64,000 bases of DNA from Vasconcelosia minhoensis LEGE 07310 (GTDB taxonomy: Bacteria; Cyanobacteriota; Cyanobacteriia; Phormidesmidales; Phormidesmidaceae): positions 1 to 64,000 of the forward strand of contig NZ_JADEXG010000002.1 of assembly GCF_015207255.1 (NCBI RefSeq). Direction: 5' to 3'. Of this stretch, positions 6,783 through 56,852 are shown piece by piece (the first letter of the stretch is position 1; every line of letters begins with the position of its first letter). The notes below the pieces were generated by a model. That model was not told the DNA's origin and ran no database searches. It was given only the letters and a program-made list of their open reading frames with translations. Both the position numbers and the translations under genes were made by a program.

Positions 6783-6834
6783 GGCGAGCCGGACTCCTGG
6801 AGGAATTCATATTGTAGGGCATTGCTCGACCGCG

Positions 6835-8716: not shown

Positions 8717-8731
8717 TTTCTAAGACTGGGG

Positions 8732-9514: not shown

Positions 9515-9550
9515 TGTAATTAATCGAGCCTCATCACAATCTGTTATCAT

Positions 9551-9596
9551 CCCTCTTTCCTCTTTCCTCTTCCCTTTTTACTCTTCCCTCTTCCCA
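9551..9596. repeat. GA/TC-rich short tandem repeat at the phnJ-phnK junction
   Basis: CCTCTTT and CCTCTTCCC units are iterated. On the coding strand they read GGGAAGAG-type repeats, which occur between many cyanobacterial genes. The phnJ stop codon (9578-9580) and its last codons (GKREE) lie in the repeat. Confidence 0.65.
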
Positions 9597-10423: not shown

Positions 10424-11658
10424 GGGGTGGGGGAGTGGTGGGGAGTGGTCGGGTGATCGAGTGGTGGGCTAATAGGCGTGGGCACGCTGTTATTTTCTAT
10501 GTTGGCGCTGTCGAAGTTCTCCGCTTGTTTTATTTCGACTTCGGTCGATTGAGTCGCCTGATTGGACTGTTGATACTCTTGGCGCAGTTTGCGAACTAAA
10601 TTCAGTTCGGCTTGGAAGTCGATGTAGTGGGGAAGCTTCAGATGTTGAACAAAGCCCTGGGCGGCGACGTTGTCGGAGTGGGAGAGCACAAATTCTTCGT
10701 CCTGGGCCGGTCCCTGGACAGTTTCGCCAAATTCTTCGGCGCGTAAGCACCGATCGACGAGTGCCATGGCCATCGCTTTGCGTTCGTTGTAGCCAAAGGT
10801 GAGGCCGTAGCCTCGCGTGAACTGCGGTGGGATGGCTGAGCTGCCTTTGAACTGGTTGACCATTTGGACTTCGGTCAGGGTGATGGACGCGATCGCGACC
10901 TCAAACCCCAGCTCTTCAGGACAAATCACCACTTCCACCTGACCGACGCGAATCTCGCCTGCAAAGGGGTGACTGTTGCCGTAGCCCCGCTGCGAGGAGT
11001 AGGCCAGACTGAGGAGAAAGCCCTCATCGGCCCGGGCCAAATTTTGCAGTCGGGCATCTCGCCCTGCCGGAAGCTGCTGTGGCTGTCGGGTCAGGTCAAA
11101 GACATTTTCTTCAGACTGGGTTGCGCCATTGTTCGGCTGCTGTATGGGATTCTCTGCTTGAATCAGACCTTCTTTACCTAAGACATCGACGACTCTCGGC
11201 ACCGGCTGATTGTCGGTCTCGCTCTCTGGCGCTGGGAACTGATTGTCTTCAGCCGCCAGCTTAAAGTCCAACAGCCGATGGATGTAGTCAAAGCTCGCGC
11301 CGAGCTGCTGGCCGCCCGGCAAGTCCTTGAAGATGGAAGAGATTCGCCGCTGGAGCTGCATCTGCCCGGTATCTACCGGCTGGCTGTAGTAGAACCGGGG
11401 CAGGGTTGTCCGATAGGCCCGCAGTAAAAAGGCGGCTTCGACCAGATCTCCCCAGGACTGCTTAATCGCCAGGGCCGCCAAATCACGGTCATAGAGGCTG
11501 CCTTCGCTGATCACCCGGTCTACTGCCAGCGCCATCTGCTGCTTGATCTGCTCTAAACTCAGCTCCGGGACGGTCTGCTCGCCGCGTCGCTGGGCCTGAA
11601 GTAGGGCTTCGGAATTCGCGATCGCTTTCGCGCCCCCTTTAACCGCAACGTAGGACAT
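10420..11658 (-). CDS. phnI: C-P lyase core subunit PhnI with low-complexity C-terminal tail
   Basis: PhnI works with PhnG, PhnH and PhnL to join phosphonate to ATP and release adenine. The N-terminal half (MSYVAVKGGAKAIANSEALL) and the regions VVDVLGKEGLI and YGLTFGYNERKAMAMA are typical. At 412 residues it exceeds the usual length of about 360. The excess is largely a C-terminal tail of roughly 45 residues rich in Asn, Ser, Thr, Pro and His (ending PTTPHHSPTP), whose last part is encoded by GC-rich tandem repeats. phnH abuts its start. Confidence 0.96.
   Translation of the reverse strand: MSYVAVKGGAKAIANSEALLQAQRRGEQTVPELSLEQIKQQMALAVDRVISEGSLYDRDLAALAIKQSWGDLVEAAFLLRAYRTTLPRFYYSQPVDTGQMQLQRRISSIFKDLPGGQQLGASFDYIHRLLDFKLAAEDNQFPAPESETDNQPVPRVVDVLGKEGLIQAENPIQQPNNGATQSEENVFDLTRQPQQLPAGRDARLQNLARADEGFLLSLAYSSQRGYGNSHPFAGEIRVGQVEVVICPEELGFEVAIASITLTEVQMVNQFKGSSAIPPQFTRGYGLTFGYNERKAMAMALVDRCLRAEEFGETVQGPAQDEEFVLSHSDNVAAQGFVQHLKLPHYIDFQAELNLVRKLRQEYQQSNQATQSTEVEIKQAENFDSANIENNSVPTPISPPLDHPTTPHHSPTP
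10430..10449. repeat. Two tandem 10-bp units (GGGGAGTGGT) inside the phnI 3' end
   Basis: GGGGAGTGGT occurs twice in tandem and is followed by GGGTGATCGAGTGGTGGG. The sequence shares GGGTGATCG with the complement of the repeat at 10-36. It is read as the Pro/His/Thr tail of PhnI. Confidence 0.6.
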
Positions 11659-12248
11659 CAGCGCACCTCCTGAGCTAACTCAACATTCACTGAGCGCGGC
11701 AACCCCAAAACGCCATCTGCCGTGAACAAAAAGACATCGATGCCTAAGGGATAGTCCTGATAGCGCTGCCACTGCTGCCAAAACTGGGCTGAAATTGCTG
11801 GTCGAATCTCTTCGCGGGTTTGAATTCCAGGTCCCCGTAACTCTACTTTTGGCCCCGAGGAAAAATCCGCAACCTGAATTAGTAGGGTCGCCGACGTTTC
11901 TGGATCGGTCGTGGTACCTCGGCTAAAGGCGTTGAGCTGGACTTGGTTAGCGTTAAGCAAGGCAAAGTCAGCCGATTTCGTTTCGGCCACAAACGAGCAG
12001 CCGGTGTGGAAGCGCAGCCAGGCTTCTACTTCAGCGGGCCAATCCGGCGGGAGCCATACCCGAGTTTCAAGATCGAGCAGCGTCAGGCTGGCCAAAGCGC
12101 AGGCTGGAGTCAGACCCGCGGGCGGCTGGAGTTTGGCGGGGATTGGGTAAAGGGTGCCGGGTCGCGCGATCGCGTCCAGCAAAGCCCGAAAGGTCTTCTG
12201 GGCGTCATATACCGGGTAACGAAAGCCGGGTAGCTGGGTTGTCTGCAT
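11658..12248 (-). CDS. phnH: C-P lyase core subunit PhnH
   Basis: PhnH is a structural and catalytic partner in the PhnGHIJ core complex. The 196-residue length, GFRYPVYDAQKTFRALLDAI near the N-terminus and the PGPGI-like stretch (ELRGPGIQTREEI near 140) match the family. ATG at 12248 overlaps the phnG stop in TGATG, and its own stop abuts the phnI start, so tight coupling is evident. Confidence 0.95.
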   Translation of the reverse strand: MQTTQLPGFRYPVYDAQKTFRALLDAIARPGTLYPIPAKLQPPAGLTPACALASLTLLDLETRVWLPPDWPAEVEAWLRFHTGCSFVAETKSADFALLNANQVQLNAFSRGTTTDPETSATLLIQVADFSSGPKVELRGPGIQTREEIRPAISAQFWQQWQRYQDYPLGIDVFLFTADGVLGLPRSVNVELAQEVR

Positions 12249-12700
12249 CACTCACCTCGCTGCATCGTAAAGAAGTTCACCTGGGTGGCCGCCGTCTGTC
12301 GCTGCTGCTGGGTTTGCTGCTGTTCTGCTGAAGCCTGTAAGGGCTGAATCACCGTGTTCTGGACGGTTTCATACCAGGCGGGATGCTGCATCAGGGCATC
12401 GCAGAGGGCGGCCTGGGTGGCGTGGACGCGATCGCGCCCGGCCACATAGCCAAACCCGGCAATTTTCTCGGCCCCAGCTTCAATCTGCACCACGCAGCGG
12501 GTTAGGGTCATTTCTCCCAGATTAAACACCTGCCCGGTTCCCCCGGCTCGACCCCGCACCATCGTCAGGCCCATCTCGGGCGATCGCAGGAAAGTATGGT
12601 CTGGCAGCTCTCCTAAAGTAGCTAGATGCTCGGCTAGCTCAGTGGGCTCAGCCTGGGCAAGCGTCGCCATCCACACGGGCCTTGCTGTCAGGTCCACCAT
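12248..12700 (-). CDS. phnG: C-P lyase core subunit PhnG
   Basis: First gene of the phn operon. Its 150 residues include WMATLAQAEPTELAEHL near residue 11, which aligns with the N-terminus of E. coli PhnG and supports this start. PhnG works with PhnH, PhnI and PhnL in forming the ribosyl phosphonate. A ribosome binding site (AGG and AAGG) sits just upstream. A promoter with a PhnF-type operator is 35-70 bp upstream. Confidence 0.93.
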   Translation of the reverse strand: MVDLTARPVWMATLAQAEPTELAEHLATLGELPDHTFLRSPEMGLTMVRGRAGGTGQVFNLGEMTLTRCVVQIEAGAEKIAGFGYVAGRDRVHATQAALCDALMQHPAWYETVQNTVIQPLQASAEQQQTQQQRQTAATQVNFFTMQRGE

Positions 12701-12730
12701 CACCTTAACCTGCTCTTAAATAAATCTAGA

Positions 12731-12740
12731 TGTCTAGACA
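12731..12740. promoter_or_regulatory. Candidate PhnF (GntR/HutC) operator
   Basis: TGTCTAGACA is a perfect 10-bp palindrome. It contains GT-C-TA-G-AC, matching the GT-N-TA-N-AC consensus of the HutC subfamily of GntR regulators. It lies where the phnG transcript should start and beside phnF. A second TCTAGA at 12725-12730 may be a weaker site. Confidence 0.65.
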
Positions 12741-12741
12741 A

Positions 12742-12770
12742 ATTATGCCGGGGTTTATCTTAGATGACAA
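12742..12770 (-). promoter_or_regulatory. Sigma-70 promoter of the phnGHIJKLM operon
   Basis: On the minus strand TTGTCA (12765-12770) and CATAAT (12742-12747) each match the -35 and -10 consensus at five of six positions, with the ideal 17-bp spacer. The predicted start, near 12735, falls inside the PhnF-type operator. The leader to the phnG ATG would be about 35 nt. Confidence 0.65.
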
Positions 12771-12798
12771 CCCCTATTTTGTGATAAAGCTGTCATTG

Positions 12799-13530
12799 AT
12801 GACCCAAGCTGCTCTACCGCTTTACATTCAAATTGCTGAAGTCCTGCGCCGTAGTATCCGCGACCAGGTTTACCAGGCGGGCGATCGGCTGCCGACGGAG
12901 GCTCAGCTGGCGGAGCGCTTTGGCGTTAATCGGCACACGCTGCGCCAGGCGATCGCGCTGCTGCGGCAGGAGGGTCTGCTGCGGGTAGAGCGGGGGCGTG
13001 GGACCTTCGTCACGGCAGCCCCGATTCGCTATGCGATTGGCAAGCGCGTCCGCTACAACGAGGCGCTGAGAGCCCACGGCCACACGGCCGAGTTCACGCT
13101 GCTGAGAGCGTTAGAGATTCCCGCTGACCCATCCGTAGCCAAAGACTTGGCCCTGAAGCCGGGAGACCCGGTGGCGCTGATCGAGCGACTGGGTTCGGCC
13201 GATGGTCAGCCGATTAGTGTCGGGACAGGTTACTTTCCGCTGGGACTTTTCCCCGACCTGCTCTCTGACGCTAGCCTCGCTTTGCTACAGGAAACCGGCT
13301 CCATTTCCCAATGGCTCAGACAGCGCTATGACTGTGACCATATTCGCCGTAGCACCTGTGTTTCAGCTCGTCTGGTCAAACCCCATGACGCCAAGCTGCT
13401 GGAGTTGCCGCTGAATCAGCCGATTCTTCTCGCTGAGGCAATTAACGAAGACCAGCAGGGACGCTTAATTGAATATGGGGTCGCACGGTTTAGAGGCGAT
13501 CGCATGGAGCTAGTATTTGAGCAGTTGTAA
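12799..13530 (+). CDS. phnF: GntR-family (HutC/PhnF-type) transcriptional regulator
   Basis: A likely repressor of the divergent phn operon. The winged-helix domain (LPLYIQIAEVLRRSIRDQVY, then RFGVNRHTLRQAIALLRQEG and VERGRGTFV) is followed by a UTRA effector domain from about residue 80 to the end. The ORF is open from ATG 12730, but that codon overlaps the operator. MTQAALPLYIQ at 12799 is the usual PhnF start and gives 243 residues. Ligand is unknown from sequence. Confidence 0.9.
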   Translation: MTQAALPLYIQIAEVLRRSIRDQVYQAGDRLPTEAQLAERFGVNRHTLRQAIALLRQEGLLRVERGRGTFVTAAPIRYAIGKRVRYNEALRAHGHTAEFTLLRALEIPADPSVAKDLALKPGDPVALIERLGSADGQPISVGTGYFPLGLFPDLLSDASLALLQETGSISQWLRQRYDCDHIRRSTCVSARLVKPHDAKLLELPLNQPILLAEAINEDQQGRLIEYGVARFRGDRMELVFEQL

Positions 13531-33583: not shown

Positions 33584-34456
33584 ATGACGCCCCCTTCTAC
33601 TCTCAGTCCCCGCCCCTTTCTCAAATGGGCTGGGGGCAAGGCCAAACTGATCGCGCAGTATGCGGACTTTATTCCCCAAGAGTTCGTCACCTACCATGAG
33701 CCTTTTCTGGGCGGCGGCGCGCTATTTTTTTACCTGGCTCCCCGGCTGAAGTCTGCCTATCTTAGCGATCTCAATCCCGAGCTGGTGAATGTCTATCGGT
33801 GCGTGCGCGATCAGGTTGATGCGGTCTTAGATTGCTTAGCTGTCCATCAGCAGCGGCACCGTCCGGACTATTACTACGCCATGCGAGCGCAAACCGATCT
33901 AGCGCCGGCGCCCCGAGCCGCACGTTTGCTCTATTTAAATAGAACCTGCTACAACGGGCTCTACCGAGAAAATTCCAAAGGCCAGTTCAATGTTCCCATG
34001 GGCCGCTATAAAAATCCGAAAATCTGCAATCCGCCGCTGCTCAAGGCCGCTTCCCAAGCCTTGCAAATTGCTGAGATCGACGTGCGCCCCTTTACCAGAG
34101 TTTTAAACGATGCCCACAGCCGTCGGGATTTTGTCTATTTCGATCCGCCCTATTACCCCATCAGCCCCACCAGTAGCTTTACTGCCTACAGCCGCTATCG
34201 GTTTGCCGCCGATCAGCAGCGTCAGCTTCAGCAGGTTTTCGCATCCCTGGCCCAGCGGCAGGTGCAAATGCTGCTGTCCAATTCGGACTGTGATTTTATC
34301 CGGCAGCTCTATGCCGATTTTTCGATTCAGTCGATTACCGCTGCCCGAGCGATCAACTCCCATGCTGACAGGCGCGGCAAAATCAGCGAGGTTTTGGTGG
34401 TGTTTCCTGAACCTGCTGCCAGTGGTAGAAATCCGGCTGGGCCTCTCCTTCAATGA
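33584..34456 (+). CDS. Dam-type DNA adenine-N6 methyltransferase
   Basis: A class alpha amino methyltransferase of about 290 residues. The SAM motif is PRPFLKWAGGKAKLI (about 9-23) with the PFLGGGALFFYL motif (about 40), and the catalytic motif is YFDPPYYP (about 185). It resembles the solitary GATC methylases of cyanobacteria; no restriction partner is adjacent. GATC lies inside the abundant HIP1 octamer. ATG at 33584 is chosen because the frame upstream to 33458 has no coding character. The 3' end overlaps the PPTase gene by 74 bp. Confidence 0.88.
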   Translation: MTPPSTLSPRPFLKWAGGKAKLIAQYADFIPQEFVTYHEPFLGGGALFFYLAPRLKSAYLSDLNPELVNVYRCVRDQVDAVLDCLAVHQQRHRPDYYYAMRAQTDLAPAPRAARLLYLNRTCYNGLYRENSKGQFNVPMGRYKNPKICNPPLLKAASQALQIAEIDVRPFTRVLNDAHSRRDFVYFDPPYYPISPTSSFTAYSRYRFAADQQRQLQQVFASLAQRQVQMLLSNSDCDFIRQLYADFSIQSITAARAINSHADRRGKISEVLVVFPEPAASGRNPAGPLLQ

Positions 34457-35072
34457 CTAGCGCCCCGACGTAGCCGGGGGGCAGATTCAAGAGCTGGAGC
34501 TGCCAGGCGGCGGACTGGGGCACCTGGAGCAGCCGCGGCGGCGATAGCTGCACTTCAACGGCTTGCATAGACTGGGTGAGCCCCAGGCCGATGGCTTTTA
34601 GGTAAGCTTCTTTGCAGGTCCAGTATTGGAGAAAGGCGCGATCGCGCTCCGCCCCCGCTAGCTGGGACTGCTCCCGCTCGGTCAAGCAGCGATCGCAGAG
34701 CCCCGCTAGCTGCTTGAGCGACCGCACCTGTTCCAGGTCAATTCCCACCCGACCGCGTTCCGCTAGCACGCAGACGGCCAGGTCCTGCGAATGGGATAGG
34801 TTGAACTGCCAGGAACTCGTTTTAGAATCGGCGCTTAGACTGGGTTTGCCGCAGGGGCCATATTCAAAGCATAGGCTCTCAGGCGGCCGCTGTAGACAGC
34901 GGCCTAGCAGCTGCCTCAGGCGACCCCGAGCTGCGATAAAGCGCCGCCGATCGGCCTCAAACCGAAACTGCTGCGACCGGATTCGCTCATCGTCGGCAAG
35001 AATCTGTAAATATGCTTGTAACTCATGGGAAGAAACGGTCAGCGGTATTTGCCAAACCTGGACAGCGCCCAT
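34383..35072 (-). CDS. 4'-phosphopantetheinyl transferase (Sfp/HetI type)
   Basis: Transfers phosphopantetheine from CoA to a carrier-protein serine. The 229-residue protein has the Sfp motifs FNLSHSQDLAVCVLA (about 88), VGIDLEQVR (about 107-115, metal-binding Asp) and FLQYWTCKEAYLKAIGLGL (about 147-165, catalytic Glu and Lys). It is divergent from a FAAL-ACAD-ACP operon, which makes the ACP at 38971 an obvious substrate; cyanobacteria usually have one such enzyme for all carriers. Confidence 0.93.
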   Translation of the reverse strand: MGAVQVWQIPLTVSSHELQAYLQILADDERIRSQQFRFEADRRRFIAARGRLRQLLGRCLQRPPESLCFEYGPCGKPSLSADSKTSSWQFNLSHSQDLAVCVLAERGRVGIDLEQVRSLKQLAGLCDRCLTEREQSQLAGAERDRAFLQYWTCKEAYLKAIGLGLTQSMQAVEVQLSPPRLLQVPQSAAWQLQLLNLPPGYVGALVIEGEAQPDFYHWQQVQETPPKPR

Positions 35073-35145
35073 TGCGTTCTCCTTTACCCTAGGGCTATCA
35101 TCCCTCAGAATCTACGCCCAGATTCCGTAGGCTAGATTCCGCAAG

Positions 35146-35355
35146 CTAAACGGTTGAATTTATGCTCTGGCGCAGGAGTTTGTATTTTGTGTAAAGAGAC
35201 TCAAGCAGGCATTCAGACTCAGGAAAGGCTGTGCCAACATACACATTGAAGCGCTCCAACCGAATTTTCTTCACAGTTTGAATCTTTTCGGCTTCCGGCT
35301 TCTCGCCATAGTGCAGTCTGAACATCGGTATTTGAGTAGGTTTTATATTCAGCAT
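35146..35355 (-). CDS. Small ORF of uncertain status, 69 aa
   Basis: Composition looks protein-like (basic, mixed, ends SLYTKYKLLRQSINSTV), but no family is recognised. Its ATG overlaps the FAAL ATG on the opposite strand (35353-35355 against 35354-35356), an odd arrangement that leaves no room for a separate promoter. The surrounding 281-bp gap (35073-35353) must also hold the promoters of the PPTase and FAAL genes. Confidence 0.3.
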   Translation of the reverse strand: MLNIKPTQIPMFRLHYGEKPEAEKIQTVKKIRLERFNVYVGTAFPESECLLESLYTKYKLLRQSINSTV

Positions 35356-37183
35356 GACTCCATCCCCTAGCTCAGCTCCCCGCTTCTCAACGCTGATCGA
35401 ACTGCTGCGCTATCGAGCTCAGACCCAGCCTGATGACCTGGCCTATCAGTTTTTAATCGATGGCAAGCGCGAGGGTACGGCCTACACCTATGGAAAACTG
35501 GATCAGCTGGCTCAGGCGATCGCGGCTCAGCTACAGCAGCAGCAGGTCAAGGGCGAACGTGCCCTGCTCCTCTATCCCCAGGGGGTAGAAGTGGTTGCAG
35601 CCTTCTGCGGCTGTCTCTACGCTGGGGTAATTGCAATTCCCGTACCGCCCCCCGACGCCGGGCGGCTGAAGCGGACGCTGCCCCGCCTACGGGAGATCGT
35701 CAAAGACGCGGAAGCGACCCTGGTGCTGAGCAATGCCCGGATTATCGAGCTGATTCAAGGCTCTGATCTAGACTTTCCTGAATTTGAAGCCATGCGCTGG
35801 ATCGATACCGAAGCAGTCGAGCCAGACCTGGCCGCGCAGTGGGAAGATCCCGGCGTCGATAAAGACGTCCTGGCCTACCTACAGTACACCTCCGGCTCGA
35901 CTTCTACGCCTAAGGGGGTCATGCTCAGCCACTACAATCTGCTGCACCATTCGGCCTACCTCCAACGGGCCTGCGGCTACAGCACCGAGAGCGCGACCGT
36001 CACCTGGATGCCCTACTTTCACGACTATGGGCTGGTTGAAGGGCTGATTCAGCCGCTCTATAACGGCGCGCCCTGCTACATCATGGCTCCCCTGGCCTTT
36101 GTCAAACGACCCCTGCGCTGGCTAGAGGCGATCGCCCGGTACAGTGCGACCCATTCCCAAGCGCCCAACTTTGCCTACGATCTCTGCATCCGCCGGATTA
36201 AGCCTGCCCAGCGCGAAGGTCTTGACCTCAGCTGCTGGCAGAGTGCAGGTAACGCCGCCGAGCCGATCAATCCTCGCATCATGCAGGAGTTCTATGACGC
36301 CTTCAAAGATGTCGGCTTTCGCTGGGAGACGTTTTCACCCGCCTACGGGCTAGCCGAAGCAACGCTGCTGGTTTCGGCTACGCCGGTCGGTCGGGCCCCG
36401 GTGATTTTGTCTCTGGACGCCAATGCGCTAGAGCAGGGGCAGGTGCGCGAAAGCCCCGCGGATGGGGAGAGCAACGTTCGGCAGACGGTGAGCTGTGGCC
36501 CCTTGGTCTGCGAAACTGAGGTTGTGATTGTCGATCCCGAGCGAGCAACGCGCTGTCAGCCCAATCAAATTGGTGAGATCTGGGTGGCCGATGCGGGCGT
36601 CGCCCACGGCTACTGGCAGCGGTCAGCGGCCACTCAGGAAACCTTTGGTGCCCATCTCAAGGCAGCGGGCCCCTACCTGAGAACGGGGGATCTGGGATTC
36701 ATGAAAGGCAGTGAGCTCTATATCACCGGACGGATTAAAGATCTGATCATCATCCGCGGTACCAATCACTATCCCCAGGATATTGAATGGACGGTGCAGC
36801 AAATTGATCCAGCGCTGCGGCCCGACTACGGTGCTTCCTTCTCTATCATCGAAGAGGGCGAAGAACGGCTGATCGTCGTGCAGGAAGTGGAGCGGCAGCA
36901 TCAGCAATCCCTAGCCGCCGAGGAGCTAATTGCCGAAATTCGACAGGCCATTTCTGAGGCCCACGAGCTTCAGGTCTACGCGATCGCGCTGGTCAAGTCC
37001 GGCAATGTGCTGAAGACCTCCAGCGGTAAAATTCAGCGGCGGGGCTGCCGGGAGCGCTTCCTCAGCGGCAATCTGGAAGTGCTGGCTGACTGGAGTGAGA
37101 ATCCTCGGCTTACCGCCAAGGTGCGCCATCTCCAGAGCGAGGTCGAGACCCTGGCCAAGCAGTTAGAAGTTTCCCAGTCGTAA
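35354..37183 (+). CDS. Fatty acyl-AMP ligase (FAAL)
   Basis: Activates a free fatty acid as acyl-AMP and transfers it to a carrier protein rather than to CoA. The 609-residue ANL enzyme has the P-loop YTSGSTSTPKGVMLSH (about 178-193), FSPAYGLAEATLLVS near 328, YLRTGDLGF near 445, and the C-terminal GRIKDLIIIRGTNHYPQDIE, which is strongly FAAL-like. The end is a short charged extension, not a carrier domain. The ACP two genes downstream supplies the acceptor. Chain length is not readable. Confidence 0.93.
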   Translation: MTPSPSSAPRFSTLIELLRYRAQTQPDDLAYQFLIDGKREGTAYTYGKLDQLAQAIAAQLQQQQVKGERALLLYPQGVEVVAAFCGCLYAGVIAIPVPPPDAGRLKRTLPRLREIVKDAEATLVLSNARIIELIQGSDLDFPEFEAMRWIDTEAVEPDLAAQWEDPGVDKDVLAYLQYTSGSTSTPKGVMLSHYNLLHHSAYLQRACGYSTESATVTWMPYFHDYGLVEGLIQPLYNGAPCYIMAPLAFVKRPLRWLEAIARYSATHSQAPNFAYDLCIRRIKPAQREGLDLSCWQSAGNAAEPINPRIMQEFYDAFKDVGFRWETFSPAYGLAEATLLVSATPVGRAPVILSLDANALEQGQVRESPADGESNVRQTVSCGPLVCETEVVIVDPERATRCQPNQIGEIWVADAGVAHGYWQRSAATQETFGAHLKAAGPYLRTGDLGFMKGSELYITGRIKDLIIIRGTNHYPQDIEWTVQQIDPALRPDYGASFSIIEEGEERLIVVQEVERQHQQSLAAEELIAEIRQAISEAHELQVYAIALVKSGNVLKTSSGKIQRRGCRERFLSGNLEVLADWSENPRLTAKVRHLQSEVETLAKQLEVSQS

Positions 37184-37196
37184 CCGTATCGGTCCT

Positions 37197-39002
37197 ATGA
37201 AAGAACTCAAGCAGTACCAGCTGGCAGAACGACTAGAGCAGGCTTTGGGGAATCCCAGCGATCCAAAAAGCCGGATGTCCTTTCATCAGACGGCTCAGCT
37301 AGACGAAGCCGAAAGCTTTCCCGAACAGGAGATTGATTGGCTTTACAACTGGCAGCTCCAGCATTACTACATTCCTGAGGACTGCGGTGGCAGGTTCAAA
37401 TCCTTTGAGGAGTTTGTGGCCTTTGTCCGAGTGCTGTCTCGCCGCGACTTGAATATTGCGATCGCGTTCACCACTCTATTCTGGTCTAATCTGGCTTGGA
37501 TGGCTGGCACTGAAGCGCAAAAGCAGACGCTAGCTGAAGCGATGAAGAAAGAGCATGTGGCCATGTGTCTGGCCTACTCTGAGCGCGATCACGGTAGCGA
37601 CCTTGTCGGAGGCTCAGTCACTGCCCAAAAAGTTGAAGGAGGCTATCTGCTCAACGGCGAAAAGTGGCCCATCAACCGCGCTACTATTTCGCAGTTTGTC
37701 TTCGTCCTGGGTCGGACCGATCCCGCTGGCGGAAACCGCGGGCTGACCCTGTTCATGGTGGACAAACGGCAGCTAGATCCCAGCCAGTATTACAACCTCC
37801 CCAAGATCAAAACCCTTGGGATTCGCGCTGCTGATATGAGTGGAATCGGCTTTAATAACTGCTTTATTCCTGAATCAGTACGTCTGGGAGAGGAGGGGCA
37901 GGGGTTGGAATTTGCGCTAGAGGGCTTCCAGATTACCCGGTCGCTCTGTGCGGCCTTTGCTCAGGGCGCTACCGATACAGCCCTGCGGACAACGTTGAAT
38001 TTTGCATTGAGTCGCCGGCTATACAACAAGACCGTTGTTGAGATGCCTCACGCCCGTCGCACCTTGGCTAATGCTTTTATTGATATCCTCACCTGTGACT
38101 GTGTCAACATCGGTGCGGCCCGCGGGTTTCACGTCGCACCTGAGCAGTTCAGCGTTTGGTCCGCCGTCGATAAATACTTCGTGCCAGATACCTTAGAGCG
38201 GGCTGTGAATGATGTTTCAGTCGTGCTAGGAGCTCGCTTCTACATGCGGGATGAGCACGACTGGGGCGTTTTCCAAAAAATGCTGCGGGACAATGCCATT
38301 ATCAGCATGTTCGACGGCAGCTCCGTCGTTAACCTGCACGCGCTCATTCTCCAGCGGCGTCAGCTAGCAAAAAAGCGGGCTCGACGTCAGCCTAAACAAA
38401 TAGCAGCGATTCAAGCTCGCTTAGCTCAGAGCTTTTCTCTGACTCAGCCATTGCCAACCTTCGTCCCCCAAAAGCTTGAGCTCTTCAGTCGGGGCGCTGA
38501 CGACGTTTTACAGGGTCTGGAAACCATGCTGGAAGAGCTAGGTCAGCTTCAGGCTGGCGGCGTAGCACCGGACATCCTAAATCAGCTGCGCTCATTCGGC
38601 CAGATTATTCTCGAAGAGCTAGATGCCCAAGATGCGCTGATTGCTGAATCTGCATTTGAGCATGGCCACGACCAGTCATTTGAAAGTTTTGAGCTAGCTA
38701 AGCAGTACTGCCGCCTGCATGCGGCAACGGCCTGCTTGCTCATGTGGTTGCATAACCGCCAAGTTTTGGGAGATTTCTTTGCTCAGGGTGAGTGGCTGGT
38801 GCTGGCTTTACACCGCCTGCTAGCCCCCCTACGCGCATCTCTCAAGCCAATGCCGCCGGTGTACTATGAGCACGCTGCTCAAGAGCTCCTGCGGCTTCAT
38901 GCCGAGGACAAACTGTTCTCAATTGTTCCCTTTCAGCTCGCTAAATCGTCTACACAGGAGACCCACAATCATGCAACAGCTCCAGAACTCCAGCTCCTCT
39001 AA
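37197..39002 (+). CDS. Acyl-CoA dehydrogenase family flavoprotein
   Basis: A 601-residue ACAD-fold enzyme, about 200 residues longer than short-chain ACADs, with the extension at the C-terminus. Diagnostic stretches are MCLAYSERDHGSDL (about 122-135), YLLNGEKWPINRA, TLGIRAADMSGIGFNNCFIP and DNAIISMFDGSSVVNLHALI near 360. In clusters with FAAL and ACP such enzymes oxidise the ACP-bound acyl chain, usually to an alpha,beta-enoyl form. It starts 13 bp after FAAL. Confidence 0.9.
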   Translation: MKELKQYQLAERLEQALGNPSDPKSRMSFHQTAQLDEAESFPEQEIDWLYNWQLQHYYIPEDCGGRFKSFEEFVAFVRVLSRRDLNIAIAFTTLFWSNLAWMAGTEAQKQTLAEAMKKEHVAMCLAYSERDHGSDLVGGSVTAQKVEGGYLLNGEKWPINRATISQFVFVLGRTDPAGGNRGLTLFMVDKRQLDPSQYYNLPKIKTLGIRAADMSGIGFNNCFIPESVRLGEEGQGLEFALEGFQITRSLCAAFAQGATDTALRTTLNFALSRRLYNKTVVEMPHARRTLANAFIDILTCDCVNIGAARGFHVAPEQFSVWSAVDKYFVPDTLERAVNDVSVVLGARFYMRDEHDWGVFQKMLRDNAIISMFDGSSVVNLHALILQRRQLAKKRARRQPKQIAAIQARLAQSFSLTQPLPTFVPQKLELFSRGADDVLQGLETMLEELGQLQAGGVAPDILNQLRSFGQIILEELDAQDALIAESAFEHGHDQSFESFELAKQYCRLHAATACLLMWLHNRQVLGDFFAQGEWLVLALHRLLAPLRASLKPMPPVYYEHAAQELLRLHAEDKLFSIVPFQLAKSSTQETHNHATAPELQLL

Positions 39003-39261
39003 TCAGACTGAGTCCCCAGTTACTGCAATTCAGTCCTGGCTGGTCAGCCAGCTCTCAGACGTCCTTTCCATCGATTCCAGCACGATTGACGTCAAGCAGC
39101 CGCTGACCCGCTATGGACTGGACTCAATCGATGCGGTAACGCTAGTCGGCGACCTTGAAGACTGGCTCGATCTTGAGCTACCCTCGACCCTGCTATGGGA
39201 CTATCCCACCATCGAGAAGGCATCGACTTACCTGGTGCAGGAGTTTGACGTCTCGGTTTAG
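38971..39261 (+). CDS. Acyl carrier protein
   Basis: A 96-residue stand-alone carrier protein. The phosphopantetheine site is RYGLDSIDAVTL with Ser52, and the four-helix pattern (LEDWLDLELPSTLLWDYPTIEKASTYL) is PKS/NRPS-type rather than FabD-type. The ATG at 38971 follows an AGGAG site and overlaps the 3' end of the ACAD gene by 32 bp, so the two are coupled. It is the expected partner of the FAAL and target of the divergent PPTase. Confidence 0.93.
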   Translation: MQQLQNSSSSNQTESPVTAIQSWLVSQLSDVLSIDSSTIDVKQPLTRYGLDSIDAVTLVGDLEDWLDLELPSTLLWDYPTIEKASTYLVQEFDVSV

Positions 39262-39334
39262 CCCTCGCAGATGAACTGATTTACGGCACCGGGCTAGATA
39301 TAGGCCGATTTGAAATAGGACAGGACGTCGATCC

Positions 39335-40798
39335 TTGAACTTTTCTGAGTTTTCCTTTTGGTGGGTATTGTTGCTGACCAGCGTGCCGTTTTTTACGGCC
39401 CGCTATGTCAGCAGGTCCTTGAATCTCTGGCGTTCCAGCTTCGACACGGTAGGTTTAGCCGCGCTCTCCCTGTTTCTCTTCTCAAACGCCAGCCGCACCA
39501 GCTTTGCGGTCTTCGGATTTGAGATCCTCTTCAACTACCTGATGGTGAAGTGGATGCTGAGCCGTCAAGGGTGGCAGGCTCGCGCGATTGCGACAGCGCT
39601 GATCGTATTTGATATTGGCGTGCTGGCCTACTTTAAATATCTGACGTTCTTTATCGAGGACATGGTGGGCTTAGCGACAGGTGGCGCTCCTGAAAACTGG
39701 CAGGCGAGTTTTCCTCTACCCATTTTCAGGCAGATTCCGCCGGGCGTGTCTTTCTATACCTTTCAGATGGTGGCCTTTGTGGTGGACTCGTTCAAAGCCC
39801 GCCGGAAAAAGCCGATCAGGTTTATCGACTATATCAACTTCGTTTCTTTCTTCCCTCAGATTGTCGCCGGGCCAATCGAACGTCGCTCCGCCTTGCTGCC
39901 CCAATTGGAAGCTTTTCAATTTAAATTCACGCTGGAGAATTTAGATTTGGGGCTGCGCTGGCTGTCACTGGGACTATTTATGAAGTTCGTTCTAGCCGAC
40001 AATATTGCCCCCTATATTCAGCTAGAGGAAATGGGAAATCCTTGGCTGGTTTGGTTTTATGCCTTTCTCTTTACCCTGCGGATCTATTTCGACTTTGCGG
40101 GCTACAGCTTCATCGCGCTGGGAATTGCCCAGATCATTGGCGTCCGGCTAACGGTCAATTTTCTCGCACCCTACACCTCGCAGAGCATCAATGAGTTTTG
40201 GCGACGCTGGCACGTGTCGCTGAGTACCTGGTTTAGGGACTATGTGTTTCTGCCGCTGATGGGCAAACGCAAGCAGTGGGCCGCCTTCTTTTTATTCATC
40301 ACCTTTACCCTGTCGGGTTTCTGGCACGGGGCGGCGTGGAATTTTATGATCTGGGGGGCCTATCACGGGGCGCTGCTGCTGCTGCTGCGCTACGCCGGAC
40401 GTCCCTTTTCCCGGCTGATAGGACAATACGTCAAACGACCTCAGTTCATCTCCTGGGCGCTGACCTTTGGTGCCGTCATTCTAGGTTGTCTATTCTTTAT
40501 GGAGACGGATACGGGGCGGCTAGTCGCTAAGCTCAGAACGCTGGTCACGCCCTGGGCCTATTCTCCAGCAAATCTACTAGGGGCCTTCAGCATCTTTAGC
40601 GTGAACGAGGGGGTTGCATTGGGACTGGTGCTGCTGCTGGCGATCGCGTTTTTACTCCTGGAACATGTTGCCGTCTGGCAGGAGCGCCCGTCAGAATACG
40701 AGCTGCTGACGTCTCCCTGGATGTCTAAACTGCTGCTGGGTCTGACGATTCTGCTGGCGGCGAACCTGCCCTCTGAATTTATCTATTTCGACTTTTAG
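39335..40798 (+). CDS. MBOAT-family membrane O-acyltransferase (AlgI/DltB-like)
   Basis: A 487-residue polytopic protein with MBOAT signatures: YFKYLTFFIED, the IPPGVSFYTFQMVAFVVDS segment, SFFPQIVAGPIERRSALLPQ, NEFWRRWHVSLSTWFRDYVFLPLMG (first functional region) and SGFWHGAAWNFMIWGAYHG with the invariant His. AlgI/DltB-type members move acyl groups across the membrane onto polysaccharides or teichoic acids. The start is TTG at 39335 after AGGACAGGA. The SGNH partner begins 3 bp downstream. Confidence 0.93.
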   Translation: MNFSEFSFWWVLLLTSVPFFTARYVSRSLNLWRSSFDTVGLAALSLFLFSNASRTSFAVFGFEILFNYLMVKWMLSRQGWQARAIATALIVFDIGVLAYFKYLTFFIEDMVGLATGGAPENWQASFPLPIFRQIPPGVSFYTFQMVAFVVDSFKARRKKPIRFIDYINFVSFFPQIVAGPIERRSALLPQLEAFQFKFTLENLDLGLRWLSLGLFMKFVLADNIAPYIQLEEMGNPWLVWFYAFLFTLRIYFDFAGYSFIALGIAQIIGVRLTVNFLAPYTSQSINEFWRRWHVSLSTWFRDYVFLPLMGKRKQWAAFFLFITFTLSGFWHGAAWNFMIWGAYHGALLLLLRYAGRPFSRLIGQYVKRPQFISWALTFGAVILGCLFFMETDTGRLVAKLRTLVTPWAYSPANLLGAFSIFSVNEGVALGLVLLLAIAFLLLEHVAVWQERPSEYELLTSPWMSKLLLGLTILLAANLPSEFIYFDF

Positions 40799-40801
40799 CG
40801 T

Positions 40802-41737
40802 ATGACCAAACGACCCAAGTTTCTAACCTGGTTAGCGGTCGCCAGCCTAGCCTGGGGCGCTGGCGTCGTCTACAACGTCTACCTGGGCGGAGAGACCTAC
40901 TGGCTGAAGGCGATGTATCAGCGCAAGATTGCCCTGGCTCAGCAGATCGACCAGCCCAAGCTAATCGTCACCGGCGGTTCGGGAGCTCACTACACGATTA
41001 ATTCCGACCTGCTCTCCCGCGAGCTGGGGCAGCCGGTGATCAACCTGGGAATCGATGGTCCGGTGGGGCTGGATGTGATTTTGCCTAGCGTTTTGGACCA
41101 GGTGCAACCGGGAGATACGGTACTGCTGATTCCAGAATATCTGCTGCTGCTGGATGAGGATGGGCTAGGCGATCGCTCTGGTCCTTTTAGCCTCGCAATT
41201 GGTCGGCCTGGGCTGGGGCAGATTCCGGCGGAGCAGCTGGCCCTGGATACGCTTCAGCTGGGGATACCTTCGCTGCGGGGCATCGTCAAATCTTCGATGG
41301 ACCTGATTGAAACCGGAAAGCTCACCGGCTATTATGACGATCCGCTGACCCAGAGTGGCGATCCGACCCTAGATAAGCCCCGGCTGGGCGAGTGGTGGCC
41401 ACAGCAGATTCGAGAGCCGGTCTCGGCCCACTCGGTGCGGCGAATTCAGCAGTTTCGCGATCAGGTGGAGGCGCGCGGGGGCCAGCTGGTGCTGTCGCTA
41501 CCCTGGGTCTATGCCGAGCCCAATCCAGAAACGGTCGAAAATGTTCGAAAAACAGTCGATGCCCTGAGCCCGATCGCGCCGCTGCTATACGATCCTGAAA
41601 CGCTCAATATTCAGGCTAGCCCCGATCTGTTTGCCGATACCCACTACCATCTCCAGGCTGAAGGGCGACGGCTGCGATCGCAGCAGCTGGCCCTTCAGCT
41701 CGAAACCCTTCCCAATCTGCCTCAGCCAACCCCATAG
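40802..41737 (+). CDS. SGNH-like membrane-anchored protein, AlgJ/DltD-type partner
   Basis: A 311-residue protein with an N-terminal membrane anchor (about 6-26), a block-I-like VTGGSGAHYTIN with Ser60, and DTHYH near the C-terminus (D279, H281, H283). This matches the Ser and D-x-H pattern of AlgJ/AlgX-type acyltransferase partners. It most likely acts outside the cytoplasmic membrane with the MBOAT encoded just upstream. No close named homologue is recognised. Confidence 0.75.
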   Translation: MTKRPKFLTWLAVASLAWGAGVVYNVYLGGETYWLKAMYQRKIALAQQIDQPKLIVTGGSGAHYTINSDLLSRELGQPVINLGIDGPVGLDVILPSVLDQVQPGDTVLLIPEYLLLLDEDGLGDRSGPFSLAIGRPGLGQIPAEQLALDTLQLGIPSLRGIVKSSMDLIETGKLTGYYDDPLTQSGDPTLDKPRLGEWWPQQIREPVSAHSVRRIQQFRDQVEARGGQLVLSLPWVYAEPNPETVENVRKTVDALSPIAPLLYDPETLNIQASPDLFADTHYHLQAEGRRLRSQQLALQLETLPNLPQPTP

Positions 41738-41745
41738 GACCCGCC

Positions 41746-43596
41746 ATGGTAACTGACCGAGCCACTACGACCCGCTGGGTAAAGCCCCTGTCGAAACGCT
41801 ATGGGCTCGATCTGCGATCGCTGGCCCTGCTGCGGATGGGACTTGCGCTGGTCATCCTAGCCGATCTGGGAATTCGGTTTGGCGACGTCACCGCCCTCTA
41901 CAGCGATGCGGGCGTTCTGCCCCGGCAGCTTTTACTAGAAGAGGTTTTACAGCCCTGGTACTGGTCTCTCCATCTGCTCAGCGGTCAGCCGCTGGTGCAG
42001 GGGCTGATGTTTGCGGCGGCGGCTTTCTTTGCCCTAGCCATGCTAGTCGGCTATCAGACGCGGCTGGCGACGATTGCCTCCTGGGCGCTGCTGGTGTCGC
42101 TGCACAACCGCAATCCGCTGCTGATTTTTGCCGCCGATGACGTGCTGCGGGCAGTGATGTTTTGGGCCATGTTTCTGCCCTTGGGGGCGGCCTACTCAAT
42201 TGACCGGGCGATGAATACGTCGTCTCAGCCGCTGCCCAGGCGCATCTTCACGGCGGCGACGGTGGCGCTGATGGTGCAGCAGTGCTTCATCTATTGGTTC
42301 TCAGCCCTGTTTAAAACGACCAGTCCAGACTGGTGGCCAAGCGGCTCTGCCGTTTACTATTCCCTGAGCTATGACCAGTACGCAACGCCGCTGGGACATC
42401 TGCTGTTGGGGCTAGGGCCGCTGCTGACGGTGTTAACGCTGGTGACGCTGGTGGTTGAATGGGTTGGGCCGCTGCTGCTGTGGGTGCCGATCCGGACGGA
42501 CTTCTTTCGGATGCTGGCGGTGATCCTATTTATTGCGCTGCACGCGGGCTTTGGCCTGACGCTGAATATTGGCATTTTTCCATTTTTGAGTATTGTCACC
42601 TGGCTAGCATTTATCCCGACTTCAGTCTGGGAAGGCTGGGCTCGAAAGGCTTATGGCCCCGCGCAGCAGGGGCTAACGATTTACTACGATGCCGACTGCG
42701 GCTTTTGTAAAAAAGTCGTGCATCTGATTCGCACCTTTCTGCTGCTGCCCCAGACGCCGCTCCAGACGGCTCAGAGCGATCCGGTGATCAACGCCGCCAT
42801 GGAAACTCAGAATTCTTGGGTGGTGGTTGACTGGCAGCAGCGTCACCACTACAAGTTTGAGGGCATTGCCTATGTCGTTAGCCTGTCACCGGTGTTTTGC
42901 TTTTTGGCCCCGCTGCTGCGCTGGCGTCCGGTGATGGCGGTCGGTACGCGGTTCTATCAAATGATTGCTAACAATCGGCGGGCTGCCGGACGACTGACTC
43001 GTCCGTTTAGCTATCGGTCGTTTCAGGTGGGCTCTTCCTGGCTGCTCAACGGCGCTGTCATCGCGCTGCTGGGGCTGACCTTTTTATGGAATTTGCGCAG
43101 CATCGTTACCCACCGTGCCTTCGTTGATAGCCAAAACCCGGCGGCTAAGGTCGTTCGCAAGGTCACTAATAGCCGCACGCTGCAGCGGGTAGACTGGCTC
43201 AGCCGCCTGACCCGGCTGGATCAGTCCTGGAGTATTTTTGCCCCCGGTGCGCCCAAAGACGACGGCTGGCATGTGGCAGTGGGGCAGCTCGCGGACGGCC
43301 GCGAGGTTGACCTGCTGCGCGAAGGCCGCGAGGTCGGCTTTGAGAAACCTAGCCTGCGCGATCGCGGACGCCTCTATCGCAATATGCAATGGCGAACCCT
43401 CTTTATTAACCTCAATCGCAATGCGGGTCAGCGAATTCTGCCGGGCTATGGCCGCTATCTCTGCCGCCAGCAGCCTGAGCTGCCGCTAAAGTCGGTCACG
43501 CTTTACTTCATGGATGAGCAAACGGTACCGCCGGGGCAGGAGCAGACCGTCAGGCAAACTGAAATTTGGCAGCAGTCTTGCTCCGACGAGCCGTAG
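41746..43596 (+). CDS. HTTM-domain membrane protein fused to a DUF393 (DCC) thiol domain
   Basis: The 616-residue protein starts with an HTTM region (about 18-295; horizontally transferred transmembrane, related to vitamin K-dependent gamma-carboxylase), with LLRMGLALVILADLGIRFGD and LHNRNPLLIFAADDVLRAVMFW. A DUF393 domain follows with YYDADCGFCKK (C318, C321), a thioredoxin-like CxxC pattern, then another membrane segment (about 433-450) and a soluble tail. This architecture is known but its reaction is not. It closes the FAAL operon, 8 bp after the SGNH gene. Confidence 0.85.
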   Translation: MVTDRATTTRWVKPLSKRYGLDLRSLALLRMGLALVILADLGIRFGDVTALYSDAGVLPRQLLLEEVLQPWYWSLHLLSGQPLVQGLMFAAAAFFALAMLVGYQTRLATIASWALLVSLHNRNPLLIFAADDVLRAVMFWAMFLPLGAAYSIDRAMNTSSQPLPRRIFTAATVALMVQQCFIYWFSALFKTTSPDWWPSGSAVYYSLSYDQYATPLGHLLLGLGPLLTVLTLVTLVVEWVGPLLLWVPIRTDFFRMLAVILFIALHAGFGLTLNIGIFPFLSIVTWLAFIPTSVWEGWARKAYGPAQQGLTIYYDADCGFCKKVVHLIRTFLLLPQTPLQTAQSDPVINAAMETQNSWVVVDWQQRHHYKFEGIAYVVSLSPVFCFLAPLLRWRPVMAVGTRFYQMIANNRRAAGRLTRPFSYRSFQVGSSWLLNGAVIALLGLTFLWNLRSIVTHRAFVDSQNPAAKVVRKVTNSRTLQRVDWLSRLTRLDQSWSIFAPGAPKDDGWHVAVGQLADGREVDLLREGREVGFEKPSLRDRGRLYRNMQWRTLFINLNRNAGQRILPGYGRYLCRQQPELPLKSVTLYFMDEQTVPPGQEQTVRQTEIWQQSCSDEP

Positions 43597-43749: not shown

Positions 43750-45126
43750 ATGTCTAACTCAATCCGGCTCGGTGGGCTATTTCGCACGGCTCGGCAATGG
43801 TTTACCAAAACGCCGGAGCGAGCTCTCGATCAGGCCTATGAAGCAGCGCTAAAAATTCAGCAGATCGAGGTCGATTACTTTGACGGCAACCCGATCTCGG
43901 CAGACTATGGCGACTACGGACAGAGCGCCCAGGCTTACTTTGAGACCGAGCTGAAGAAATATCTCAATCTGATTCGGATGCGGATGGGCGAATTCCGCTC
44001 CAGCTCTTCCATCTTCCGCGTTGACAATGAGCGGGTCATGGAGGTGCAGCTTTCAGAGCATGTCGATGATGACTACGCCTTAGACCTCATCGACCGGCCA
44101 GCAGCGTTCTTTAGAAAGCTGCGAGTGATTGACGACGTCCTGGCGCGCTATGCCGATGCTCCCGGTTCTGCCAAGGCTGACTCTACCCTAGCGACTACGT
44201 CCAATCCTGTGCCCAACCCCACGTCCAACCGGGCTCTGAAGCGTTCCGAGATCGTCAAAGACAGCAGCCTGCGGGAAGTAGCAAGGACCCCGCAGGCTGA
44301 CGCCGCCGCGCCGAGTAACGAAGGCCTATCTGCCCAGAGCAGCGTTTTGCCCCGGTCAATCCTGCGGACCGTCGATCGAATTCGGCAGGACCTCGACCCC
44401 GAGGCCGAAGACCAGGTTGTCCGTAACTTTCGCAGCTCCAAGACCAAGACAACGATGGCGCTGCGGTTTATTCTATTTCTGATCATCGTGCCGCTGATTA
44501 CCCAGCAGGTGAGTAAAAACTTCATCGTTGGCCCGGTCGTCAACTATGTGCGAGACAGCACCAATGCCGAAGTTTTCCTAAATATGGAGATGGAGGAAGA
44601 AGCCCTGCACGAACTTCAGCAGTTTGAGGAGCGGCTGCGTTTCGAAGTCCTGATCGGCAAGGCACCGCCGCTGAATGAGCTGAGAATTGAGGAACAGGTG
44701 CGAGAAAAGGCATTCGAAATTGAGGAAGCCTACCGCCAGCGCAGCAGCGATGCGGTTAAAAATGTTTTCTCCGATATGATTGCGGCCCTGGCCTTTGGCT
44801 TGCTGCTGTCTGCCTGTGGGCGTCAGGTTGCCGCGCTCAAAGGCTTTATGGATGAGATTGTCTACGGGCTCAGCGATAGCGCCAAGGCGTTTATCATCAT
44901 TTTATTCACTGACATGTTCGTCGGGTTTCACTCCCCCCACGGCTGGGAAGTTTTGCTAGAAGGGCTTTCCAGACATTTGGGGTTTTCGGCTAATCACAAC
45001 TTCATCTTTTTGTTCATCGCCACGTTCCCGGTCATTCTCGATACGGTGTTTAAATATTGGATTTTCCGCTACCTCAACCGGATCTCGCCTTCCGCCGTCG
45101 CCACCTACAAAAATATGAACGAATAA
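43750..45126 (+). CDS. pcxA: Proton extrusion protein PcxA (CemA/CotA homologue)
   Basis: Light-induced proton extrusion protein of the cytoplasmic membrane, homologous to chloroplast CemA. ALDQAYEAALKIQQIEVDYFDG and YFETELKKYLNLIRMRMGEFR are typical of the N-terminal domain; a poorly conserved Ala/Ser/Thr-rich linker (about 145-205) and the C-terminal membrane domain (IRFYLIVPLITQQ-type segment, then AFGLLLSACGRQVAALKGFMDEIVYGLSDSAKAFIII) follow. ATG at 43750 is chosen over an upstream TTG. Confidence 0.95.
   Translation: MSNSIRLGGLFRTARQWFTKTPERALDQAYEAALKIQQIEVDYFDGNPISADYGDYGQSAQAYFETELKKYLNLIRMRMGEFRSSSSIFRVDNERVMEVQLSEHVDDDYALDLIDRPAAFFRKLRVIDDVLARYADAPGSAKADSTLATTSNPVPNPTSNRALKRSEIVKDSSLREVARTPQADAAAPSNEGLSAQSSVLPRSILRTVDRIRQDLDPEAEDQVVRNFRSSKTKTTMALRFILFLIIVPLITQQVSKNFIVGPVVNYVRDSTNAEVFLNMEMEEEALHELQQFEERLRFEVLIGKAPPLNELRIEEQVREKAFEIEEAYRQRSSDAVKNVFSDMIAALAFGLLLSACGRQVAALKGFMDEIVYGLSDSAKAFIIILFTDMFVGFHSPHGWEVLLEGLSRHLGFSANHNFIFLFIATFPVILDTVFKYWIFRYLNRISPSAVATYKNMNE

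Positions 45127-54972: not shown

Positions 54973-56852
<1,880 letters not shown>

Follow-up and report, generated by a model that had tools for sequence, protein, structure and literature searches.

Dlt, with DltB, is the only MBOAT–SGNH system in which use of a carrier protein is known; PatA takes its acyl group from acetyl-CoA, with no carrier protein involved (PMC12148441). An FXYXXF "acyl shuttle" has been proven experimentally in PatA and DltX; for PatA, mutation and mass spectrometry placed the acyl group on the tyrosine of the motif (PMC12148441). MBOAT–SGNH relays have so far fallen into a carrier-fed kind, in which the shuttle is separate (Dlt), and a CoA-fed kind, in which it is fused (PatA). 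Fatty acyl-AMP ligases (FAALs) reject CoA and load ACP (PMC8460268). The word "MBOAT" is absent from the FAAL review PMC11837247, and in the openly licensed literature we found no paper covering FAAL together with MBOAT, none on HTTM together with DUF393, and no description of the operon system presented here.

The DNA analysed, a stretch of 64,000 nucleotides from Vasconcelosia minhoensis LEGE 07310 (the window), contains six plus-strand genes opposite one divergent minus-strand phosphopantetheinyl transferase (PPTase) gene (Table 1). From FAAL to HTTM-DCC1 the intergenic gaps are, in order, 13, −32, 73, 3 and 8 bp. The open reading frame positions bear out the first-pass annotation on the six-gene set, the Sfp-type PPTase and all five gaps. 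Pfam matches comprise ACPS, AMP-binding with a DIP2-like C-domain, three ACAD domains, PP-binding, MBOAT and DCC1. Orthologs beginning MNFSEFSFWW support the TTG start of the MBOAT gene. Promoter and terminator pattern counts were not above those of shuffled sequence. The next gene downstream of HTTM-DCC1, 153 bp away, is a PcxA/CemA gene (43750–45126).

Table 1. Genes and candidate functional sites of the locus (window positions).
Feature	Position	Strand	Basis and remarks
Sfp/HetI-like PPTase, divergent	34383..35072	−	Pfam ACPS, NCBIfam
FAAL, fatty acyl-AMP ligase	35354..37183	+	Pfam, structure collinearity, clade; expected role: fatty-acid adenylation and transfer to ACP
ACAD-family flavoenzyme, 601 aa	37197..39002	+	Pfam N, M and C domains of ACAD; orthologs
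ACAD Asp373, at the usual catalytic Glu position	38313..38315	+	Family alignment
ACP	38971..39261	+	Pfam PP-binding; 32-bp overlap with ACAD gene
ACP Ser52 (RYGLDSID), phosphopantetheine site	39124..39126	+	Invariant
MBOAT, DltB-like	39335..40798	+	Pfam, NCBIfam, PDB matches; TTG start
MBOAT His331 (GFWHG), candidate catalytic His	40325..40327	+	Invariant
MBOAT C-terminal FIYFDF (482–487), FXYXXF motif, Tyr484	40778..40795	+	Ortholog alignment
SGNH protein, one N-terminal TM helix (6–28)	40802..41737	+	Predicted fold, alignment
SGNH Ser60 (GGSGAH), candidate nucleophile	40979..40981	+	Invariant
SGNH Asp279-Thr-His281-Tyr-His283, candidate triad Asp/His	41636..41650	+	Alignment
HTTM-DCC1	41746..43596	+	GGCX-like membrane fold with thioredoxin-like insertion; Pfam DCC1
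DCC CxxC, Cys318-Gly-Phe-Cys321	42697..42708	+	Invariant

The operon probably encodes a carrier-protein-fed, trans-membrane fatty-acylation relay functionally analogous to Dlt. From the observed gene content, order, co-occurrence, motifs and folds we infer its reactions, the acyl chain, the acceptor and the involvement of HTTM-DCC1. FAAL would activate a free fatty acid as its adenylate and transfer it to holo-ACP, on which the ACAD-like flavoenzyme would oxidise the chain, probably giving a 2-enoyl product. From the ACP phosphopantetheine the DltB-like MBOAT would pass the acyl group across the membrane to its own Tyr484, from where the membrane-anchored SGNH protein would take it onto Ser60 and transfer it as an ester to an extracytoplasmic glycan or glycolipid. 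HTTM-DCC1, joined in most relatives by a quinone reductase of the NDH-2 type, would add a redox step.

Orthologs of the ACAD (at least 57% identity) occur in 24 of 390 cyanobacterial genomes, and 23 of these 24 also hold MBOAT, SGNH and HTTM orthologs; the remaining genome is fragmentary and is interrupted within its MBOAT gene. MBOAT orthologs are likewise found in 24 of the 390, 23 of them shared with ACAD (hypergeometric p ~7e-35, uncorrected for relatedness). At genus level, 15 are shared, of 15 and 16 among 159 genera (p ~4e-20, again uncorrected for relatedness). Microcystis has kept MBOAT, SGNH and HTTM together with ACAD though the genes are spread over four loci, and FAAL orthologs are retained in the scattered-gene genomes checked. 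Wherever a named locus has both ACAD and ACP (64 loci), the two adjoin, and MBOAT and SGNH do so in 35 of 36. In some Crocosphaera/Cyanothece loci SGNH lies apart from MBOAT, elsewhere in the genomes checked. The gene layout is far beyond chance.

By sequence the ligase is of FAAL type and not a CoA ligase, and rejection of CoA is predicted for it. Its best 15 PDB matches are all FAAL-type proteins, with 7r7e at E 6.6e-162 and collinear over the full length; it is also collinear with the FAAL structure 3kxw. It scores 444 bits on the NCBIfam fatty-acid--AMP ligase model NF004509 against 95 bits on DltA (NF003417, cut-off 476). The flavoenzyme carries a C-terminal extension of ~200 aa and is expected, judging from its domains, to be an acyl-ACP dehydrogenase. 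The usual catalytic Glu is absent, however: all 79 family members have Asp at the position of MCAD Glu376. Asp373 may serve as the base in its place; the unsaturation step suggested earlier stays an inference. The 32-bp overlap of the ACAD and ACP genes points to likely translational coupling.

FAAL, ACAD and ACP might instead supply the starter to an NRPS/PKS encoded far away, for a lipopeptide or polyketide, with MBOAT, SGNH and HTTM forming a separate, adjoining surface-acylation unit. Such an arrangement has a precedent in Gammaproteobacteria (Pseudomonas, Marinobacterium and others), where a homologous FAAL-ACAD-ACP cassette precedes a one-module C-A-PCP(-TE) NRPS with MMPL-family transporters nearby, and the window genome itself holds, outside the operon, two condensation-domain matches and a 2785-aa adenylation protein. 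Yet 4 of 22 genomes with the operon lack NRPS condensation domains altogether, which makes a lipopeptide role less likely. MBOAT, SGNH and HTTM also co-occur near perfectly with the cassette, even where the genes are scattered, and FAALs of the operon type form one clade, separate from further FAALs encoded in those genomes. We regard a distant synthetase as a decidedly improbable destination. The earlier proposal that a lipid-activation module is dedicated to feeding a membrane acyltransferase, for which a gene order not conserved in relatives was named as a counter-sign, is upheld by this conserved order and co-occurrence and by the four genomes free of condensation domains.

The divergent PPTase, which had been listed with the operon, is a different matter. 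Among the named cyanobacterial loci only 5 have a PPTase just upstream of FAAL, and at the loci of relatives it is mostly missing, which rules it out as a dedicated part; the window genome also has a second PPTase, on contig C46. In two genomes (G012 and G049) the operon-side enzyme is the sole match above the family cut-off, and it is therefore likely to be general. It could activate the ACP.

The MBOAT finds its best match in DltB (TIGR04091, E 3.6e-52; PDB 6bug, E 7.7e-30), although its 177.9 bits on the DltB equivalog TIGR04091 are under the 375-bit cut-off. His293 is invariant alongside His331, and FIYF-x-F forms the C-terminal end in 54 of 54 full-length orthologs checked. As other MBOAT–SGNH pairs use acyl-CoA, the proposed link between ACP and MBOAT rests on gene linkage, and a carrier protein genetically linked to an MBOAT–SGNH pair, a feature of Dlt, is present in the operon.

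The SGNH protein has no match in Pfam or NCBIfam. SGNH and HTTM profiles searched against PDB sequences returned nothing useful, and fold comparison alone was informative: the structure model is a membrane-anchored SGNH domain, with DltD 6o93 and the OatA SGNH domain among its fold matches. Ser60, Asp279 and His283 are invariant in orthologs and His281 is kept in at least 90%; the Asp–His spacing of the candidate triad is unusual and not DxxH. The protein is a candidate for accepting the acyl group from the MBOAT tyrosine and for acting as the final transferase. The "AlgJ-like" parallel drawn earlier is not the best one, and we dropped the AlgI/AlgJ label: the MBOAT is nearest to DltB and has FXYXXF, and the SGNH serine precedes the Asp/His block.

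The acyl target outside the cell is probably a surface sugar. GT2, PMT_2/GT-C and GtrA-DPMS genes adjoin the cluster in many relatives, and in two genomes (G224 and G298) a related MBOAT–SGNH pair lies amid genes resembling Kdo biosynthesis. Nothing in the sequences fixes the acceptor, and the pair could instead acylate an exported protein, or else a small molecule or membrane lipid (quinone, carotenoid glycoside, glycolipid), with HTTM modifying the same molecule. MBOATs as a superfamily also acylate lipids and proteins, and the adjacent PMT_2-type glycosyltransferases may act on either. Against such an acceptor, which we consider unlikely, stand the sugar genes flanking many loci and the envelope polymers targeted by FXYXXF bacterial MBOAT–SGNH pairs of known function (PMC12148441). 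Emulcyan, a cyanobacterial extracellular polysaccharide with fatty acids, was considered as a possible product. PMC4500136 states only that fatty acids can occur, in small amounts, on cyanobacterial exopolysaccharides, and we claim no link between emulcyan and the operon.

HTTM-DCC1 scores 23.2 bits on Pfam HTTM, slightly below the cut-off of 27.7. Its predicted fold matches GGCX (VIA Z 15.6–23.5 over 324–391 residues; next unrelated chain 7.7). Lys190 is invariant, while profile searches gave no residue-level alignment to GGCX, whose active-site Lys is K218. The first-pass annotation saw an "unexplained redox-type step" in HTTM-DUF393. In the model this step corresponds to a GGCX fold with a thioredoxin-like insertion, and most relatives add a gene for an NDH-2-type oxidoreductase. 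The window operon has none, and a search of the window genome found just a 41% paralog common to all genomes.

NDH2 and HTTM could belong to an unrelated redox process, forming a second module beside FAAL-ACAD-ACP-MBOAT-SGNH acylation, a reading that leaves room for the acylation part of the Dlt-like relay. In several genomes (G002, G015, G033) copies of the two are paired away from the cassette, beside a PPTase, and HTTM matches of 49–50% identity, mostly partial, occur in genomes without it. Nevertheless, all 23 genomes with cassette and MBOAT hold a full-length HTTM ortholog (at least 49% identity), scattered cases included, and we treat two modules as a tentative, somewhat unlikely alternative. 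More speculatively, and with only a slim chance of being right, the operon may perform a new envelope modification in which a carrier-bound fatty acyl chain, exported through an acyl-Tyr relay, is altered outside by quinol-driven GGCX-like chemistry; HTTM with its own thioredoxin-like domain would carry this out, using quinone reduced by the NDH-2-type enzyme. If true, bacteria would have a parallel to the vitamin K cycle that is directed at lipid or glycan and not at protein Glu.

Should the Dlt-like relay be correct, FAALs would have a role beyond PKS/NRPS, and cyanobacterial surface-glycan lipidation would become open to genetics in genera including Microcystis, Okeania, Anabaena and Leptolyngbya. 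GGCX-fold and NDH-2-type proteins would be set in a defined pathway in which their chemistry can be tested.

Set against the GGCX/HTTM family, the last gene product of the operon appears alike in its modelled membrane fold, but differs by the inserted thioredoxin-like CxxC domain, and we ascribe no carboxylation to it. FAAL-ACP starter modules of cyanobacterial and other bacterial lipopeptides and polyketides likewise pair a FAAL with its own ACP; in contrast, this cluster has no NRPS/PKS and its output is MBOAT–SGNH. PatA-PatB/AlgI-type systems share the MBOAT with C-terminal FXYXXF and the membrane-anchored SGNH partner, whereas here the pair comes with a linked FAAL and ACP. The Gram-positive Dlt system (DltA-DltC-DltB-DltX-DltD), which D-alanylates teichoic acids, likewise combines an adenylating ligase, a carrier protein, an MBOAT and an SGNH protein, with DltB the closest MBOAT by sequence and a similar acyl-Tyr shuttle motif. 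However, a fatty acyl ligase takes the place of DltA, an ACAD is extra, and the shuttle motif, which in Dlt sits on a separate microprotein (DltX), is fused to the MBOAT. The hosts are Gram-negative cyanobacteria without teichoic acid, and the operon adds HTTM and often NDH2. It joins carrier feeding to a fused shuttle, and the cargo it points to is a fatty acid, not an acetyl or D-alanyl group.

The source genome of the window is cyanobacterial (5.26 Mb), and the window lies on contig C72 of 161. An ORF check bore out the seven genes and the intergenic gaps of the first-pass annotation, with unchanged coordinates. Pfam and NCBIfam identified six of the seven genes, the SGNH protein being the sole exception. 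Relatives back two of the start calls: the TTG start of the MBOAT is supported by orthologs that begin with MNFSEFSFWW, and the ACP start within the ACAD gene agrees with a median overlap of 32 bp (64 loci).

The operon is a real unit. Among 59 relatives, gene order is the same in each genome that has a close MBOAT ortholog on a sufficiently long contig. The ACAD is found in 24 of 390 genomes of the class, always at least 57% identical, and a search of the 390 at E 1e-40 yielded no weaker matches. MBOAT orthologs (at least 65% identity) occur in 23 of these 24, plus one 50% relative in genome G224; the remaining ACAD genome, G029 (completeness 61%), has a contig that breaks off inside the MBOAT gene. 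The same 23 genomes hold the SGNH orthologs (with 36–38% relatives in G224 and G298) and full-length HTTM orthologs (at least 49% identity). The chance of such an ACAD/MBOAT overlap is about 7e-35 by genomes and 4e-20 by genera, uncorrected for relatedness. Gene order and co-occurrence, the check proposed in the first-pass annotation, are thus conserved; the divergent PPTase, named there with the operon, is not a conserved partner, judging by relatives' loci and PPTase matches across genomes. A record titled Candidatus Gracilibacteria (L100) carries FAAL-ACAD-ACP-MBOAT almost identical to Hydrococcus and is probably a mis-binned cyanobacterial contig.

The strongest evidence for the unit comes from genomes in which it is scattered. 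Microcystis-type G277 and G282 keep FAAL, ACAD-ACP, MBOAT-SGNH-NDH2 (NDH2, an NDH-2-type oxidoreductase gene) and HTTM at four sites, with none lost; in G305 and G357, FAAL is separate from ACAD-ACP-MBOAT-NDH2, and SGNH-HTTM occupies another site. The scattered FAALs nest in the operon-FAAL clade of the tree (support 99/97), with other FAALs from the same genomes outside it.

Named organisms with these genes include Leptolyngbya, Phormidesmis, Adonisia, Hydrococcus, Coleofasciculus, Crocosphaera, Cyanothece, Okeania, Microcystis, Anabaena, Nostoc, Sphaerospermopsis and Geitlerinema. The usual, fuller arrangement in relatives is FAAL-ACAD-ACP-MBOAT-SGNH-NDH2-HTTM. NDH2 is absent from the window operon, and the window's genome yields only a common 41% paralog. 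The fuller form is often followed by a second MBOAT (31–37% identical, C-terminus FLYFQF), suggesting a second acylation step within the same cluster, and by a protein of ~406 aa; other frequent followers are glycosyltransferase genes, GT2, PMT_2 or GtrA-DPMS.

In the HTTM model (pLDDT 80.5), GGCX structures rank top (VIA Z 15.6–23.5 vs 7.7 for the next chain), and residues 304–421 form a predicted insertion matching thioredoxin-like folds; the CxxC motif and Lys190 are both invariant. The NDH2-HTTM pair may form a partly independent module, because copies of the two also occur together, beside a PPTase, remote from the FAAL-ACAD-ACP cassette. Three such sites, with a broken or gapped second HTTM, may be what is left of a cluster duplication, or else a module in their own right.

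Features of the window and of related loci
Feature	Location	Strand	Content
PPTase	34383-35072	-	divergent
FAAL, ACAD, ACP, MBOAT, SGNH, HTTM-DCC1	35354-43596	+	six-gene operon
PcxA/CemA proton-extrusion gene	43750-45126		3′ of operon; likewise L097, L098, L099 (same clade only)
Phosphonate-use genes	6105-13530		PhnI, ABC transporter ATPase, amidohydrolase, divergent GntR-UTRA regulator
F1 ATP synthase beta subunit ORF	54973-56805		GTG start, ~130 additional N-terminal residues
Distant MBOAT-SGNH pair	L258 7978-10363 (G224)		genome without ACAD
Distant MBOAT-SGNH pair	L259 19-1421 (G298)		genome without ACAD
NDH2, second HTTM, PPTase	G002:C5:2096386-2099973		apart from FAAL operon
NDH2, second HTTM, PPTase	G015:C115:192180-195776		same layout
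NDH2, second HTTM, PPTase	G033:C11:1828356-1832018		same layout
Second MBOAT after HTTM	L104, L107, L108, L117, L122, L123, L124, L132, L144, L145, L149, L153, L162		~406-aa protein in most of the 13
Proteobacterial cassette, then single-module NRPS	L164, L169, L170, L172, L174, L175, L176		C-A-PCP-TE in L175

Elsewhere in the window, the phosphonate-use genes are consistent with a C-P lyase operon, and the extra N-terminus of the ATP synthase subunit is probably merely an over-long ORF call.

The top PDB matches of the FAAL are FAALs, aligned collinearly over the full length; FAALs refuse CoA and accept holo-ACP (PMC8460268). The RYGLDSID motif of the ACP is invariant. The ACAD retains all three ACAD domains and has a C-terminal extension; in alignment to MCAD, Asp373 occupies the catalytic Glu position (79/79 relatives, including Proteobacteria). 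Given intact domains and this Asp, the sequence makes dehydrogenation of acyl-ACP likely, though not certain. In Pseudomonas, Marinobacterium and others a C-A-PCP(-TE) NRPS follows the FAAL-ACAD-ACP cassette and MMPL-family transporters lie close by, so the cassette is reusable. For cyanobacteria, a hidden NRPS partner is unlikely, because 4 of 22 operon-bearing genomes (G297, G388, G049, G316) lack any condensation-domain match at E 1e-15. The proteobacterial loci, several with an MMPL-family and an SRPBCC-fold protein nearby, look like lipo-amino-acid clusters, of which we found no description.

As to the acceptor in cyanobacteria, many loci are flanked by sugar-transferase genes, and the distant MBOAT-SGNH pair of G224 and G298 neighbours glycosyltransferases and KdsA-, KdsB-, KdsC- and KdsD-like genes, which by the look of their sequences resemble Kdo biosynthesis. 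On both grounds we favour a surface glycan or glycolipid.

The MBOAT is DltB-like by sequence comparison, with His293 and His331 invariant, and ends in FIYF-x-F in all full-length orthologs read; in PatA and DltX, the FXYXXF Tyr bears the acyl group on its way to the SGNH protein (PMC12148441). The SGNH protein, with invariant Ser60, Asp279 and His283, is predicted to comprise an N-terminal TM helix and an SGNH domain (pLDDT 89.8); by fold the model matches SGNH esterases (VIA Z 10.8–12.8), and its Foldseek list includes DltD 6o93 and the OatA SGNH domain. The first-pass outline, a lipid-activation module feeding a membrane acyltransferase, stands and can be sharpened: the operon would act as a carrier-fed, Dlt-like fatty-acyl relay with a fused shuttle of PatA type, each reaction of which we infer. 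Our literature search found no prior description of such a relay operon. Other MBOAT/SGNH pathways do not have the Dlt-type carrier protein (PMC12148441), evidently because acyl-CoA is their donor. The present operon falls outside this division between Dlt and the other pathways, as it joins a fused shuttle to a linked carrier protein.
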